Below, piece after piece: positions 13,038 to 54,306 of a stretch of DNA of 64,000 nt; the stretch's first letter is position 1, and the number at the start of each line of letters is the position of its first letter. Under the pieces are notes generated by a model. The model was not told the DNA's origin. It searched no databases and worked only from the letters and a program-made list of their open reading frames with translations. The DNA is from Pontiella sulfatireligans. Lineage in GTDB: Bacteria > Verrucomicrobiota > Kiritimatiellia > Kiritimatiellales > Pontiellaceae. The stretch spans positions 1,922,001 through 1,986,000 of the forward strand of contig NZ_CAAHFH010000002.1 in assembly GCF_900890705.1 (NCBI RefSeq). Direction: 5' to 3'. Position numbers and translations under genes: made by a program.

Positions 13038-13484
13038 ATGAAACAGAGAGTTCAAAATACGATTATGGCGGCATCCCTGCTAGTACTGGCCGGTTGCATG
13101 AGCCCTACCTGGGAAGGCATGTCCGAAGGTGAAATCGCCGCGTGGAAAGATATCGGCTTTGATGCCTCCATTGCCCAGGGCTGGAGAAACGACGGCTTCA
13201 CTCCCGATACGGCGAAAGGATGGGTAACAGCTGAGTTTAGCATTGATGAAGCCAAAGACTGGTCCGGTGAAAGATTTACTCCAGAAGAAGCTGTGGGCTG
13301 GAAGCAGGGTGGTTTTACTCTAAAAAAAGCCATTGATTCCCGCGCCAAAGGATTAACTCCAGTTCAAATGCCGGCAGCGCCCGCGACAACTGAAGAGTCC
13401 GCGGCAGCGCCCGCGACAACTGAAGAGTCCGCGGCAGCGCCCGCGACAACTGAAGAGTCCGCGGCTGCACCGGACGCTGAGTAG
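13038..13484 (+). CDS. Repeat-containing lipoprotein
   Basis: 148 residues. Lipobox LAGC gives an acylated Cys at residue 19. Residues ~30-105 consist of about five short helical repeats of the form A-x-x-W-x-x-x-G-F (AAWKDIGF, QGWRNDGF, KGWVTAEF, VGWKQGGF). The C-terminus holds three identical AAPATTEESA units encoded by a 30-bp perfect tandem repeat. The function is unknown; the W/GF repeats could be a surface protein-binding rod and the Ala/Pro/Thr tail a linker. AAGGAGAG precedes the ATG, a promoter lies upstream and a strong terminator downstream, so it is a monocistronic unit. Confidence 0.7.
   Translation: MKQRVQNTIMAASLLVLAGCMSPTWEGMSEGEIAAWKDIGFDASIAQGWRNDGFTPDTAKGWVTAEFSIDEAKDWSGERFTPEEAVGWKQGGFTLKKAIDSRAKGLTPVQMPAAPATTEESAAAPATTEESAAAPATTEESAAAPDAE
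13374..13463. repeat. 30-bp perfect tandem repeat, 3 copies
   Basis: Three identical 30-bp units (13374-13403, 13404-13433, 13434-13463) at the 3' end of the lipoprotein gene encode AAPATTEESA each. Perfect identity indicates recent expansion or slippage. Confidence 0.9.
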
Positions 13485-48916: not shown

Positions 48917-49420
48917 GAAAATGTTCTAATGTGTGGTAGAAGGGAATTCGGGGCGTGGAAAGAAGGGCGTGGTGCGTTTCTCGACTTGGAGGGTGCACTC
49001 CTTTAGAGAAGCACGCGCTTACATGCCCTTTTCAGGCCAAAGCGATCCCCCTCAACATGCCATGCTGAATGATTATCAAGAACGGCTACCAAGAAAATAA
49101 AACCCGTTTTTATGAGCAATACGCATCAGGTAACTGTTTTTTTTGGGCGGTAACTATTTTTTCAGGGCGAGAACGGTTTGTGGCCGTGTCGTCAGCCAAA
49201 TGATTTGACCAGCTTAATGGAGAACCACCCAGACCATTCAAAGAGAGTGTTCTTGCTGTCAAAATTTAGACACAAAAGAGGTATATACCCTGTAAATACG
49301 GGGATTTCGTAAGAAGCCCCTGGATTAGGGGAGCTTAATCGAAAATCCATTATTTATCCCACACGCCCGTCCGTAATTGTTTTTTTTGGCGCATAATCAT
49401 TTTTTGGCAGTAGGGAACTA
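48917..49420. other. Non-coding leader region with duplicated motif
   Basis: No gene seen. Two related ~45-bp segments, at 49131-49175 and 49372-49416, each read GTAA-Y-TGTTTTTTTTGG, then GTAACTATTTTTT or ATAATCATTTTTTGG, then GGGAAC or GAGAAC. A hairpin AAGCCCCT ... AGGGGAGCTT lies at 49314-49336. The second segment leads directly into the tandem array. Confidence 0.55.
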
Positions 49421-50065
49421 TTTGGGAGAGATCCTTCAACTGGGCCAAGCGACACCCCCCGGAACCGCCTAAATTAGGCAGTTTTCTTGGCTCTCCGTTA
49501 ATTTTTATGGAGAACGTAGGTTTTCGACCGGATAACAGGATCATCGGGATGACTCTACTATGAAGGCCGCTCTATCCTGTCGACCTTCCAGTTCCCCCTT
49601 CAATCCCTCCTGGCGATACGGGCAAGTCATTGTAAGGAAACACATTAAAAGCCATTCTCCTGCTGATATACAGGATTTGATCCGGTTCATCCTGTTATCC
49701 CGTCAAAAAGATTTCTCCGATTTCTCCACCACAAAATTCCACGAAGAACCGTTTTCTTGGGAGAGATCCTAAAATTGAGCCAAGTAATACGGTATGACTA
49801 ACAATGTTAGCCCGAGTTGCTCTTGGGAGAGAACCTAAAATTGAGCCAAGCAACACGTAGAGTTACAAATGTAACCTTGCATCGGCCTTGGGAGAGATCC
49901 TAAAATTGAGCCAAGCAACACGGAGGTAACAAATGTTACCCGCCCGCCCCGGCTTGGGAGAGATCCTTAAACTGAACCAAGCAACACGATGCGCATGGGC
50001 TTTGTGTAAATTACACAACGTAGGGAGAGATCCTTGAACTGCCGAAATACCGATGCGCCAAAACG
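49421..50065 (+). repeat. Six-unit structured tandem array upstream of Fic gene
   Basis: Units start at 49421, 49756, 49822, 49887, 49953 and ~50020, period 65-67 bp once an insertion is removed. Each has a conserved core, CTTGGGAGAGATCC then TAAAATTGAGCCAAG then CAACACG, in which CTTGG pairs with CCAAG. A dyad follows that differs in each unit yet stays self-complementary: GCCTAA-A-TTAGGC, CTAAC-AAT-GTTAG, GTTAC-AAAT-GTAAC, GGTAAC-AAAT-GTTACC, TGTGTAA-A-TTACACA. The last unit is degenerate. No open frame follows the period. It could be repeated operators or repeated RNA structures. Confidence 0.85.
49491..49750. mobile_element. 260-bp MITE-like insertion with 10-bp target duplication
   Basis: Interrupts the second array unit right after CTTGG. 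GTTTTCTTGG flanks it at 49481-49490 and 49751-49760. Internal inverted repeats: GGATAACAGGAT (49530-49541) with ATCCTGTTATCC (49689-49700), and TGGAGAA (49508) with TTCTCCA (49722). No transposase is encoded, so it would need one in trans. Confidence 0.7.
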
Positions 50066-50128
50066 AATAATAATATTTTGACAAACTGGGTAAAATATAA
50101 CAGTTTTTGCAGAACGAGGGCTGGTTAA

Positions 50129-51625
50129 ATGAACAATAATTCACAACATGTTGGTTATAAAAGGATTATGGAATGTCTAGGGGTCGGGGATCTTCCTTGC
50201 CACTGTACCTCGCATATTTTGGAATCTGGATCCAGAAAGACGGTGGAGCATGCCGGGAAGACCGAAGAATACTACACCAAATCCTATGCGCCGGGCGATT
50301 CGATCTTTGACCAGATGGTTTTTGCCCTGAAGTATGAAGGCATCAACCTGCTGATACTTAAAAAGGCGTTTGAGAAGACAAATGCTTGGACTTTAACCGA
50401 TTTTATCCAATCCACCCCAACCGGCAGGTACCATCGAAAATTGTGGTATCTCTACGAAAACCTGACGGGAAAGCAGTTGGATTTGCCGGATTTGACCAAG
50501 GGGAACTACATCGATCTGATCGATCCAAAGAAGTTCTTCGTGGCAAAACCGACTCAAGTCCAAAGGCAGCGCATCAATGACAATCTTCTCGGCGACTTTG
50601 CGTTCAGCCCAACGGTGCGCCGGACACCTAAGATGGAACAATATCTGGAAGCTGATTTCGGGAGCAAATGCAAAGAGATCATAGATGGCTATCCACCCGA
50701 ACTCATTCGCGATGCCTTGGCCTATCTGTATACGCAAGAAACCCGAAGTTCCTACCGGATTGAGCAGGAATCGCTGTCCGGGAACAAGCAGGAGCGGTTT
50801 ATGCAGCTCTTGCGTGAAGCGGATTCCCGCGACTATCTGAGCAAGCCGGGACTGATTGAGTTGCAGAAAAAAGTCATCACGGATCCGCGGTACCACAGGG
50901 AGGACTACCGGGATTCGCAGGAATATGTCGGCTCATCCGCGCTAACCGGAGATGTTGTTCATTTGGTTCCTCCAAAACCGTTGGATTTGGACGAACTGAT
51001 GGAGGGCTTGTTCAATGCGGCGCATCGGATGATGGATTCAGATCTCAATCCGGTGGTGATTGCCGCGATCATTGCGTTCGGATTTGTCTATATCCATCCA
51101 TTCAAAGACGGCAATGGTCGCATCCACCGGTTCCTTATACACCACATCCTTTCCCGGATGGGATTCACGCCCCAGGATTTTGTTTTCCCGGTATCGGCCG
51201 TTATGTACCAGAATGCCCGGGAGTATCAGGATACCTTGAACCTGTTCTCGGAACCCTTGCTTCAATTGGTTGACTATTCGCTGGATCATGAAGGCGCAAT
51301 GACCGTGCGCGGCGACACGGTTGACTACTATCGTTATTTCGATGCAACCGGCATTGTTGAAAACCTGTTTTCATTCATAAGTGATACGATTGATAGCGAA
51401 TACCTCAAAGAACTAGATTTTCTAAAACGGTTTGCCGATGCCAAAAACGCGGTCGAGCAGATCGTGGACGGCATGTCTCAGCGGGAAGCCCGGATCTTTG
51501 TCGAGAATTGCAAAGCCAATGGCTACAAGCTCAGCAAAGCCAAGCGCGAAAAGTTTTTCAACATGCTGGCCGACGATGAAATCTGCACGCTAGAGCTAGC
51601 TGTTCAGGAGGCATTCGAAGAATGA
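50129..51625 (+). CDS. Fic-domain AMPylase-like protein
   Basis: 498 residues. The Fic catalytic motif HPFKDGNGRIHRF is complete at 323-335. An upstream helix SSYRIEQE (S208...E212) matches the S-x-x-x-E inhibitory motif of class II Fic proteins, but with Gln in place of the usual Gly/Asn after Glu. The N-terminal ~180 residues (ALKYEGINLLILKKAFEKT) form a helical domain typical of large Fic proteins, and the C-terminal ~100 residues look like a winged helix. Fic enzymes transfer AMP or other groups to target proteins. It stands alone downstream of the structured array; GAGGG lies ~9 bp before the ATG. Confidence 0.85.
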   Translation: MNNNSQHVGYKRIMECLGVGDLPCHCTSHILESGSRKTVEHAGKTEEYYTKSYAPGDSIFDQMVFALKYEGINLLILKKAFEKTNAWTLTDFIQSTPTGRYHRKLWYLYENLTGKQLDLPDLTKGNYIDLIDPKKFFVAKPTQVQRQRINDNLLGDFAFSPTVRRTPKMEQYLEADFGSKCKEIIDGYPPELIRDALAYLYTQETRSSYRIEQESLSGNKQERFMQLLREADSRDYLSKPGLIELQKKVITDPRYHREDYRDSQEYVGSSALTGDVVHLVPPKPLDLDELMEGLFNAAHRMMDSDLNPVVIAAIIAFGFVYIHPFKDGNGRIHRFLIHHILSRMGFTPQDFVFPVSAVMYQNAREYQDTLNLFSEPLLQLVDYSLDHEGAMTVRGDTVDYYRYFDATGIVENLFSFISDTIDSEYLKELDFLKRFADAKNAVEQIVDGMSQREARIFVENCKANGYKLSKAKREKFFNMLADDEICTLELAVQEAFEE

Positions 51626-51843: not shown

Positions 51844-54306
51844 CTAGATGAAGAGGTTGGCGTTGTTGCCGAGGTGGTCGATGTACATTGCCACGCCGCC
51901 TTCTTCCAGCCCGTCGATCAGCTCTTCGCTTTTAATGCCCATCAAGTCCATCGTCATGGTGCAGGCGACCATTTTCACCCCGTTGGCTTGAGCGGCCTTA
52001 ATCAGCTCCGGCAGGGTGGAGACGTTTTTCTTTTTCATGACGTCCTTCATCATCGCCGTGCCCATGCCGGCCATATGCAGCTGCGAGAGCGAAAGTTTGT
52101 CGGGCCCCTGCGGCATCATCCGGCCAAACATTTTTTCGATCATCGTTTTTTTCAAGGTCATCGGACCGTTTTTCCGAAGAATGTTCAGCCCCCAGAAGGT
52201 GAAGAACAGGGTGACTTCATAGCCCATCGTCGCGGCGCCGTTGGCAATGATGAACGAGGCGAGCGCACGGTCGAGATCGTTGCTGAAGACCACGTTGGTG
52301 AAGCGCTTCGTTTCCTGCGGAATCATGGAGCAGACTGCACCGCCCTGACGTTTGGTGATAGTGGCTTCGTAGCCGCCGCCGGCCGCCGGCGCAACATTGT
52401 CGAGCTGGTTGCCGGTGGAGTTGCACCACGCCGGAATGTCTGCGGCAAAGCCGTGGTCGGTCGAGAGGATCGTGAGCGCTTCGCCGGGCTGCAGTTCGTC
52501 GAGCGCCGTCTTCAGGCTCATGATCGGGCCGGGGCATTGCAGGCCGCTGGTGTCGATATGCTTGACCACTTTTCCGGCGGCCGATTCTTTTTCGGTCATA
52601 TTAATGGTCTCCGCGCCCGGATCGTCCGTGCTCTGGTCGTTTTCCGGCACGTCGGGCAGGTGTTGGGCGGTCGTCATGGAATAGGTTTTGTACCCGCCGG
52701 TCAGGTTGCGGCACTTGAAGCCGTTCTGTGTCATAATACGGCAGGCGAGGTAGCCGCGCAGGCCGACTTGGCAGAGGATCAGGTACTCGCGGTCTTTCGA
52801 GAGCTCGTCCAGCTTGCCGCGCAGCTGCCCGAGCGGAATGTTTTTTGCGCCGGGGACGGTGCCGCCCTCCACTTCTTCCGGATTGCGGACATCAACCACC
52901 ATTTGGTTTTCGGTTGGATTGCACACGTCTTCAACGTGGCAGAGCTTGGCGTCGCCGCGCAGCACATTCGAAGCAACGAAGCCGGCATAGTTGACCGCAT
53001 CCTTGGCCGAACCGTAGGGCGGGGCATAGGTGAGTTCCATCTCTTCCAAGTCGTAGACCGTCAGGCCGGCGCGAATGGCGACGGCCAGCACGTCGATGCG
53101 TTTGTCCACGCCGTCGGCGCCGACCGCCTGGGCCCCGAGGACTTTTCCAGAGGCTGGATCAAACAGCAGTTTGAGCGAGATCGGGTGGGAGCCGGGATAG
53201 TAGGAGGCATGGCTGGCCGGATGCACATAGACCTTTTCATAGGAAATGTTCTGCCGTTTCGCCATCTTTTCGCTGAGGCCGGTCATGCCGATGGCCAGAT
53301 TGAAGACTTTGCAGATGGCGGTGCCCTGCGTGTTCTTGTAGGAGCTGTCGCCTCCGAAAATATTGTCGGCCGCAATGCGGCCCTGGCGGTTGGCGGGGCC
53401 CGCCAGCGGAATCAGGGCGGGCTGGCCGGTCGTGAAGTCGGTCACTTCCACAGCGTCGCCAACGGCATAGATGGCTGGATCGGAGGTGAGCATGTGGTCG
53501 TTCACCTTGATGCCGCCCGTTGTGCCGAGCTCCAGGCCTGCATCGACCGCCAGCGTTGCTTCCGGCTTTACGCCGATCGCGAGGATTGCCAGATCGACAT
53601 GCAGCCGCTCGCCGTCGCTCAGGATCAGGTCCACTCCGTCGCCGGCTTCTTCGAAGGCGGTTACGGAGGTTTCGAGTTTGAGGTTTACGCCAAAGAGTCG
53701 CAGTTCCTGATGCAGGACGCTCGCCATCTCGGGATCGGCCGGGCCCATCACCTGCGGCGCCAGCTCGATTAGCGTGGTGTCCATCTTGATTTCGCGCAGG
53801 GCTTCGGCCATTTCGAGGCCGATGTAGCCGCCGCCGATGACGGCCGCGCTTTTTTTGTTTGCCAGCGATTGGATAATCAGATCCATGTCTTCGAGGTTGC
53901 GCAGCGTCAGCACGTTCGGGTTATCAATGCCGGGAATCGGCGGGCGTATCGGCGCGGCGCCGGGGCTGAGGACCAGCGCGTCGTATGCTTCGGTGTATTC
54001 CTCGCCGGTCTTCAGGTTTTTAACGGCAATTTCCTTTTTTTCGCGGTCGATGGAAACCACTTCGCTGAGGGTACGGACGTCAATATTGAATTTTGAGGTC
54101 ATCATTTGAGGAGTGGTGACCAGCAATTTTTCACGGTCGGCGATGGTTCCGCCGATATGGTAGGGCAGGCCGCAGTTTGCAAACGAAATATCCGGACCGC
54201 GTTCGAACAGAATGATTTCCGCATTTTCGTCCAGACGGCGGGCACGCGCAGCGGCGCTGGCGCCTCCGGCGACGCCTCCAATGATGAGCAGTTTTTTCAT
54301 ATTCAT
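51844..54306 (-). CDS. CoA-disulfide/polysulfide reductase with rhodanese, TusA and DsrE domains
   Basis: 820 residues, four modules. (1) FAD/NAD-dependent CoA-disulfide reductase, ~1-450: GGVAGGASAAARARR, redox cysteine in SFANCGLPYH (Cys45), and GGGYIGLEMAEALR. (2) Rhodanese, ~470-550: VVDVRNPEEVEGG with active LCQVGLRGY. (3) TusA, ~585-655: GLQCPGPIMSLKTALDEL. (4) DsrE-like, ~670-820: FIIANGAATMGYEVTLFFTFWGLN and ACTMTMDLMG. It reduces persulfides or CoA disulfides and passes sulfane sulfur among its own domains. Comparable multi-domain forms are known in anaerobes. An ArsR gene lies 68 bp upstream. Confidence 0.9.
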   Translation of the reverse strand: MNMKKLLIIGGVAGGASAAARARRLDENAEIILFERGPDISFANCGLPYHIGGTIADREKLLVTTPQMMTSKFNIDVRTLSEVVSIDREKKEIAVKNLKTGEEYTEAYDALVLSPGAAPIRPPIPGIDNPNVLTLRNLEDMDLIIQSLANKKSAAVIGGGYIGLEMAEALREIKMDTTLIELAPQVMGPADPEMASVLHQELRLFGVNLKLETSVTAFEEAGDGVDLILSDGERLHVDLAILAIGVKPEATLAVDAGLELGTTGGIKVNDHMLTSDPAIYAVGDAVEVTDFTTGQPALIPLAGPANRQGRIAADNIFGGDSSYKNTQGTAICKVFNLAIGMTGLSEKMAKRQNISYEKVYVHPASHASYYPGSHPISLKLLFDPASGKVLGAQAVGADGVDKRIDVLAVAIRAGLTVYDLEEMELTYAPPYGSAKDAVNYAGFVASNVLRGDAKLCHVEDVCNPTENQMVVDVRNPEEVEGGTVPGAKNIPLGQLRGKLDELSKDREYLILCQVGLRGYLACRIMTQNGFKCRNLTGGYKTYSMTTAQHLPDVPENDQSTDDPGAETINMTEKESAAGKVVKHIDTSGLQCPGPIMSLKTALDELQPGEALTILSTDHGFAADIPAWCNSTGNQLDNVAPAAGGGYEATITKRQGGAVCSMIPQETKRFTNVVFSNDLDRALASFIIANGAATMGYEVTLFFTFWGLNILRKNGPMTLKKTMIEKMFGRMMPQGPDKLSLSQLHMAGMGTAMMKDVMKKKNVSTLPELIKAAQANGVKMVACTMTMDLMGIKSEELIDGLEEGGVAMYIDHLGNNANLFI

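Follow-up and report, generated by a model that had tools for sequence, protein, structure and literature searches.

The locus analysed here raises the question of what a tandem array of 66-bp units is doing directly upstream of a gene coding for a Fic protein. The array and the gene, a member of the PDC-S24 family, lie in a stretch of 64,000 nucleotides referred to as the window. An earlier note on this DNA had proposed that the array is a repeat-RNA antitoxin resembling those of type III toxin-antitoxin systems or, alternatively, a multi-copy operator of the gene. Elsewhere in the window there are a perfect tandem repeat of a 30-bp unit at 13372-13465 (3.1 copies, 100% identical) and, at 51844-54306, a large fusion protein in which a pyridine-nucleotide-disulphide oxidoreductase is joined to rhodanese, TusA and DsrE-like domains. 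The features on which our answer is based are collected in Table 1.

Table 1. Features of the fic locus in window coordinates; bit scores of boxes refer to the family matrix.
Feature	Position	Strand	Description
Triplet T1, operator-like	49101-49165	+	boxes at 49101 (AACCCGTTTT), 49131 (TAACTGTTTT; 16.2 bits) and 49151 (TAACTATTTT; 16.3 bits); spacing 30, 20
Triplet T2, distal, operator-like	49344-49408	+	boxes at 49344 (weak), 49374 (TAATTGTTTT; 17.5 bits) and 49394 (TAATCATTTT; 14.7 bits); spacing 30, 20
Array unit U0	49421-49488	+	3' end is the MITE target site
U0 dyad	49467-49479	.	GCCTAAATTAGGC; dyad analysis
MITE target duplication	49481-49488 and 49751-49758	.	GTTTTCTT; 8-bp direct repeat
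MITE-like element	49489-49750	.	262 bp, between U0 and U1; 3 genome copies, 98-100% identity
Array unit U1	49756-49821	+	repeat search, TRF
U1 dyad	49798-49810		CTAACAATGTTAG; dyad analysis
Array unit U2	49822-49886	+	repeat search, TRF
U2 dyad	49862-49875		GTTACAAATGTAAC; dyad analysis
Array unit U3	49887-49952	+	repeat search, TRF
U3 dyad	49925-49940		GGTAACAAATGTTACC; dyad analysis
Array unit U4	49953-50019	+	repeat search, TRF
U4 dyad	50002-50018		TTGTGTAAATTACACAA; dyad analysis
Partial array unit U5	50020-50045	+	repeat search; core model, 15.2 bits (positions 4-22)
Triplet T3, proximal, operator-like	50068-50128	+	boxes at 50068 (TAATAATATTTTGACA; 7.4 bits), 50098 (TAACAGTTTTTGCAG; TAACAGTTTT, 17.3 bits) and 50118 (weak); spacing 30, 20
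Candidate -35, TTGACA	50078-50083	+	within first box of T3; from sequence; same overlap in 20/60 relatives
fic gene, PDC-S24	50129-51625	+	498 aa; PADLOC E 5.8e-168; Pfam Fic E 2e-15

A tandem array interrupted by a MITE-like element

A repeat search of the window found six copies of a 34-nt core at positions 49422-50054, with start spacings of 335, 66, 65, 66 and 67 bp, and TRF reported 3.6 copies of period 66 at 49756-49988 (score 251). Units U1 to U5 are contiguous, and U0 is set apart from them because a MITE-like element separates it from U1; once this element is taken out, the cores follow each other with periods of 65, 66, 65, 66 and 67 bp. The inserted segment has the features by which MITEs are recognized, namely, it is short and non-coding, it ends in imperfect terminal inverted repeats (GGCTCTCCGTTAATTTT/GGTTCTTCGTGGAATTTT), and it occurs in several copies with target duplications, those of the other two genome copies being their own 8-bp sequences (GTGAATAT and AATTTTTT). 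Short pieces elsewhere in the genome resemble parts of the element too, namely, positions 181-226 and the first 24 bases of the segment searched.

The six units of 65-67 bp described in the earlier note are therefore present as six cores, but not as one uninterrupted series, and the sixth unit is a fragment of 26 nt that lacks the CCAAG end. The array stops 83 bp 5' of the fic ATG. Core identity is 91% among five units, and the pairing of the core ends as CTTGG/CCAAG, also noted earlier, holds for U1 to U4, whereas U0 has TTTGG and U5 lacks the partner; in predicted RNA folds this pairing competes with the hairpin UUGGGA-GAGA-UCCUAA. A self-complementary dyad, said to be in every unit, was recovered in U0 to U4. 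These dyads share an AAT or AAAT centre of 3-4 nt, flanked by arms of 5-7 bp whose bases are specific to each unit, with only 0-4 of 5 bases in common between units, and their distance from the core drifts from about 45 to 57 nt. The claim that the array contains no coding frame was borne out to the extent that no plausible one was seen, only short overlapping ORFs being present.

Compared with shuffled spacers, the dyads of U0 to U4 gave p values of 0.036, 0.045, 0.046, 0.011 and 0.003, which are modest individually but combine to a Fisher p of 2e-5, and the dyads are thus probably beyond chance. They nevertheless fall short of a strongly structured RNA. When nested folds were computed for the units one at a time, U1 reached a z of -3.0 against shuffles and the other units +0.2 to -1.6; U1 to U5 folded together gave -2.0 as RNA and -1.9 as DNA. 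An Rfam scan of the array region returned nothing of note. Dyads that drift and yet remain complementary can result from selection on a hairpin or from template switching within palindromes, and their self-complementarity hints at one of two things, some selection on the array or such a copying mechanism.

Three other identities were considered and rejected. First, a CRISPR-like array, with a 36-bp repeat and a spacer of about 30 bp, did not fit on inspection, as the spacers are all dyads around a common AAT centre; no cas-like genes were noted among the neighbouring genes examined. Second, the RYYYAAC/GTTRRRY frame of integron attC sites is absent, as judged by eye. Third, a coding repeat was dismissed because the periods of 65-67 bp are not all multiples of three.

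A solitary Fic gene found in many phyla

The product of the fic gene matches the PADLOC profile of PDC-S24 over its full length (residues 5-497 on profile positions 4-490 of 497). PADLOC-DB lists PDC-S24 as a phage-defence candidate, and no study of it was found in the literature searched. The active-site motif, HPFKDGNGRIHR, fits HxFx[DE]GNGRxxR, with core residues that are invariant or nearly so in two alignments (A1 and A2). In class II Fic proteins, an inhibitory helix precedes the Fic motif. When residues S208-E212 are compared with the inhibitory motif [ST]xxxE[GN], S208 and E212 are conserved, the latter being invariant, like the active-site motif, in 18 and 59 homologues, and the final position is not restricted to G or N but is occupied by Q, K, H, N or R. 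Judging from its sequence, the protein is predicted to be an active AMP-transferase, class II-like, with an inhibitory helix motif of its own.

Fold matches of the whole protein in the PDB are Fic proteins, not endoribonucleases of the ToxN, CptN or TenpN fold. The AlphaFold model has a pLDDT of 93.4 over the full length and of 94.5 over residues 1-167. For the N-terminal domain no PDB fold match was significant, the first being Rv2827c (E 0.18), with AbiEi of S. agalactiae lower in the ranking (E 0.72), both of them antitoxins of the AbiEi type; nor did this domain match any Pfam family convincingly.

Relatives of the protein occur in more than 20 phyla, on plasmids (257 records, each covered to 80% or more) and on some viral contigs; a single-sequence search with the Fic protein found none on viral contigs, and an alignment-based search found four close PDC-S24 members. 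No gene was common to the neighbourhoods of 96 PDC-S24 loci, and therefore the family has no conserved partner antitoxin. In L232, a locus on a Deinococcus plasmid, the gene is flanked by hsdS and hsdR as part of a type I restriction-modification operon, and in Bosea a cytosine methyltransferase is found two genes away from it.

The array is known from one genome

The core was not found elsewhere in the source genome or in 28 genomes of its family (3 mismatches allowed), nor, by profile search, in 42 further genomes of the order or at any other locus of the PDC-S24 relatives (94 sources including the window). Plasmids searched with blastn gave zero matches, as did GTDB species contigs and IMG/VR viral contigs scanned for the exact pattern, a type of scan that may overlook diverged copies. 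The search of the core upstream of other fic genes, one of the checks that the earlier note had suggested, was thus negative. At present sampling the array is a feature of one lineage, known from one genome, and since nothing else shares it, passive expansion is the simplest reading.

Triplets of direct boxes are a family-wide feature

The upstream regions of PDC-S24 relatives were read first, and short repeats on one strand were noticed. These boxes are direct repeats, often TAAYNRTTTTTCT, and PDC-S24 genes of more than 20 phyla have them as triplets with spacings of exactly 30 and 20 bp. To our knowledge, neither the triplets nor the array has been described previously. The evidence is as follows. 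First, in the 250-bp regions upstream of 102 PDC-S24 genes, TAANNNTTTT occurs 177 times on the same strand and 7 times on the reverse, compared with a shuffle expectation of 13.4 (maximum 24 in 200 shuffle sets); most matches are less than 200 bp from the start codon, and box-to-box distances peak at 50 (31), 20 (24) and 30 bp (18), any other distance being seen at most 7 times. Second, a scan independent of box sequence, in which three 14-mers were scored at every spacing from 14 to 45, ranked (30,20) top of 1024 pairs, with a mean of 27.95 over a background of 18.99 (sd 0.81, z 11). Taken individually, 86/99 loci scored higher for this geometry than 59 or all of their 60 shuffles. Third, eight plasmid loci fetched later, as an out-of-sample test, again had (30,20) as the best of 961 pairs (z 6.8). 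The loci are not independent, yet many phyla are represented among them, and the geometry was repeated out of sample. As a control, 66 loci of other Fic families showed 5 forward and 5 reverse boxes and no geometry (rank 31 of 450). Therefore, the geometry of the boxes is specific to the PDC-S24 family.

Box sequences vary within this geometry. Loci without TAANNNTTTT have the same spacing with other boxes, namely, GCGCGTTTTTCTTG (L039), ATGCTTTTT (L062) and TATGTATAAAAAAG (L140), and the second PDC-S24 gene of the source genome (L056, contig C4) has TTTCGACGA. Many loci, for instance L039, L060, L065 and L110, have two triplets, the gap between the distal and the proximal one being roughly 30-65 bp in relatives. 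The proximal triplet starts at a median of -76.5, relative to start codons that were set automatically and may be wrong in a few cases, and covers the -35, the -10 and the RBS. A TTGAC-like -35 lies at the end of the first box in 20/60 loci with a proximal triplet, and in most of these 20 the second box bears a -10-like hexamer.

A de novo motif search succeeded in most loci; no upstream triplet was seen in L111, L115, L133 and L137. Downstream triplets, whose first box begins with the fic stop codon TAA, occur in L044, L046, L111 and L131, and in L111 the triplet is only behind fic. Further upstream in L233 the box copies look inverted (GCAAAATGCTCAG), the proximal boxes being direct, and L038, the closest relative, has a perfect palindrome of 20 bp (TTTCCTTACATGTAAGGAAA) upstream of fic, with distal sequence on one side of it and the promoter on the other.

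The array lies between operator-like triplets

The window has its own triplets. T1 is the top (30,20) triplet upstream of its fic gene, with a score that 0/60 shuffles reach, and T3 is placed relative to the ATG much as in relatives. The candidate -35 in the first box of T3 is missing from the list of a default promoter scan. The last box of T2 is 674 bp away from the first box of T3, or about 404 bp once the MITE-like element and one target copy are subtracted, and this gap is filled by the array and the element. When scored with the family matrix, the array units yielded no convincing match to the family-type box. Hence the array interrupts a conserved control region and is not that region. 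An operator-like feature does exist, as the earlier note had suspected, and it is family-wide; it consists, however, not of the array but of the triplets of TAANNNTTTT type that flank it. A striking repeat array can thus be a lineage-specific accident within a conserved control region.

It may still be asked whether the 66-bp units do something in cis, as sites of a second regulator or as a DNA bend or hairpin, tuning fic or aiding the interaction of the triplets. Their high core identity, the complementarity kept by the dyads and their location between distal and proximal triplets make this a possibility to be taken seriously, but one that we regard as unlikely. The arms vary in a manner unlike the sites of one protein, no convincing family-type box is found inside the units, a young tandem repeat preserves its core through descent alone, and template switching at palindromes can maintain complementary arms without selection.

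The Fic protein as the likely binder of the boxes

Sequence distances between boxes correlate with distances between Fic proteins (Mantel r 0.43, p 0.001; 0.42 with GC controlled), and residues 59-165 alone keep a partial correlation with the boxes, albeit a weak one (r 0.13, p 0.04). Because boxes follow the Fic phylogeny, and because the two paralogues of the source genome differ in their boxes, Fic itself is the likely binder.

With some reserve, we consider it probable that the array is a lineage-specific expansion between operator triplets through which Fic represses its own promoter. According to this model, the PDC-S24 gene is mobile and solitary, and the tandem repeat would have expanded within its control region, between the distal triplet and the proximal one, where the MITE-like element would later have struck it; we infer that the array is a passive spacer. 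The working, conserved part would be the triplets, with their three boxes on the same strand, rather than the array. The Fic protein, probably by means of its N-terminal helical domain, would bind the boxes cooperatively, and the bound protein would repress its own promoter, so that a potentially toxic AMP-transferase is kept scarce. The distal triplet may provide extra sites or allow looping.

A factor encoded by the host, such as a nucleoid protein or a general regulator, may instead bind the triplets, since the boxes are AT-rich and overlap promoters and since fold and Pfam searches demonstrated no DNA-binding domain in Fic. We find this improbable: a single geometry is kept on plasmids as well as across more than 20 phyla, despite different box sequences, the box sequence tracks that of Fic, and other Fic families lack the boxes. 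A single host regulator is made unlikely, in particular, by L056, which combines different boxes with the same geometry.

Autorepression through the triplets, taken as plain repression of a promoter, leaves the triplets located at the stop codon in four loci unexplained. It is tempting to speculate that PDC-S24 is a toxin module of one gene whose antitoxin is DNA, the protein being inactive or scarce while it sits on its own triplets; this is a doubtful proposition, which would also account for triplets behind the stop codon, out of direct reach of the promoter.

The same downstream triplets, the inverted-looking copies in L233, the unrelated neighbourhoods of fic and the ORFs near L044 and L048, which by eye we take to be IstA/IstB-like, would also suit recognition sites (subterminal repeats) of a mobile element carrying fic, rather than operators. 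This seems to us very unlikely, as no transposase or other gene is common to the loci, and the boxes are direct instead of inverted, keep a fixed distance from the start codon and overlap the -35 and -10. Some boxes resemble the ends of IS21 elements, and repeats of that kind were rejected as an overall account because boxes occur without any shared transposase gene.

Comparison with known systems

The closest parallel to autorepression by Fic is CccR of Yersinia pseudotuberculosis, a Fic toxin that contains a DNA-binding domain and represses its own promoter near the -35/-10 (PMC9755527). Like CccR, PDC-S24 is a Fic protein of the AMP-transferase type, with a predicted inhibitory S/E motif, and its genes have repeated boxes on the -35/-10 of their own promoter. 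Negative autoregulation has been demonstrated for CccR, and for PDC-S24 autorepression is the likely counterpart. The two also differ: CccR has a C-terminal HTH and a single inverted pair of AGATAATCAT boxes 26 bp apart, whereas PDC-S24 belongs to another Fic family, has no demonstrated HTH and has direct triplets spaced 30/20 bp, usually two of them.

The AbiEi and Rv2827c antitoxins, autoregulators of defence loci whose binding sites are multiple repeats (PMC7319586), are among the best, non-significant fold matches of the PDC-S24 N-terminal domain. They are, however, separate antitoxin proteins acting on inverted repeats, and no sequence similarity to PDC-S24 was detected, so that this model-based resemblance may serve as a lead only.

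Type III systems (ToxIN, CptIN and TenpIN) resemble the locus in that a possible toxin gene is preceded by a tandem array, but their unit is of about 35 nt, rather than 66 nt, their toxin is an endoribonuclease, rather than a Fic protein, and a Rho-independent terminator separates array and toxin gene (PMC5086642). In such systems the repeat RNA forms a pseudoknot and is processed by the toxin. A type III-like pair, in which structured RNAs of about 66 nt would be cut from a transcript of the array and restrain Fic, draws on the position of the array, its conserved core with covarying dyads and the folding of the whole array as RNA (z -2.0), but we regard it as scarcely credible: the array precedes no other PDC-S24 gene examined and is not conserved with the gene, a terminator scan found no terminator-like site between 50045 and 50129, the sole such site being that at 49467-49479 inside U0, four of the five units fold near shuffle level (z +0.2 to -3.0 over all units), no Rfam match of note was obtained, and Fic has its own predicted inhibitory helix and is without a nuclease domain for processing repeats.

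Implications for the PDC-S24 family

The idea that Fic has an RNA antitoxin, tempting as it is, lacks support and can be set aside, and the results reveal that a solitary Fic gene of more than 20 phyla, so far just a defence candidate, has a rigid operator-like code. If DNA were indeed the antitoxin, the loss or occupation of the sites, for example during phage takeover or degradation of the host DNA, would free an active AMP-transferase. The boxes may offer a direct and cheap handle on the control of a toxic AMP-transferase that lacks a separate antitoxin gene.
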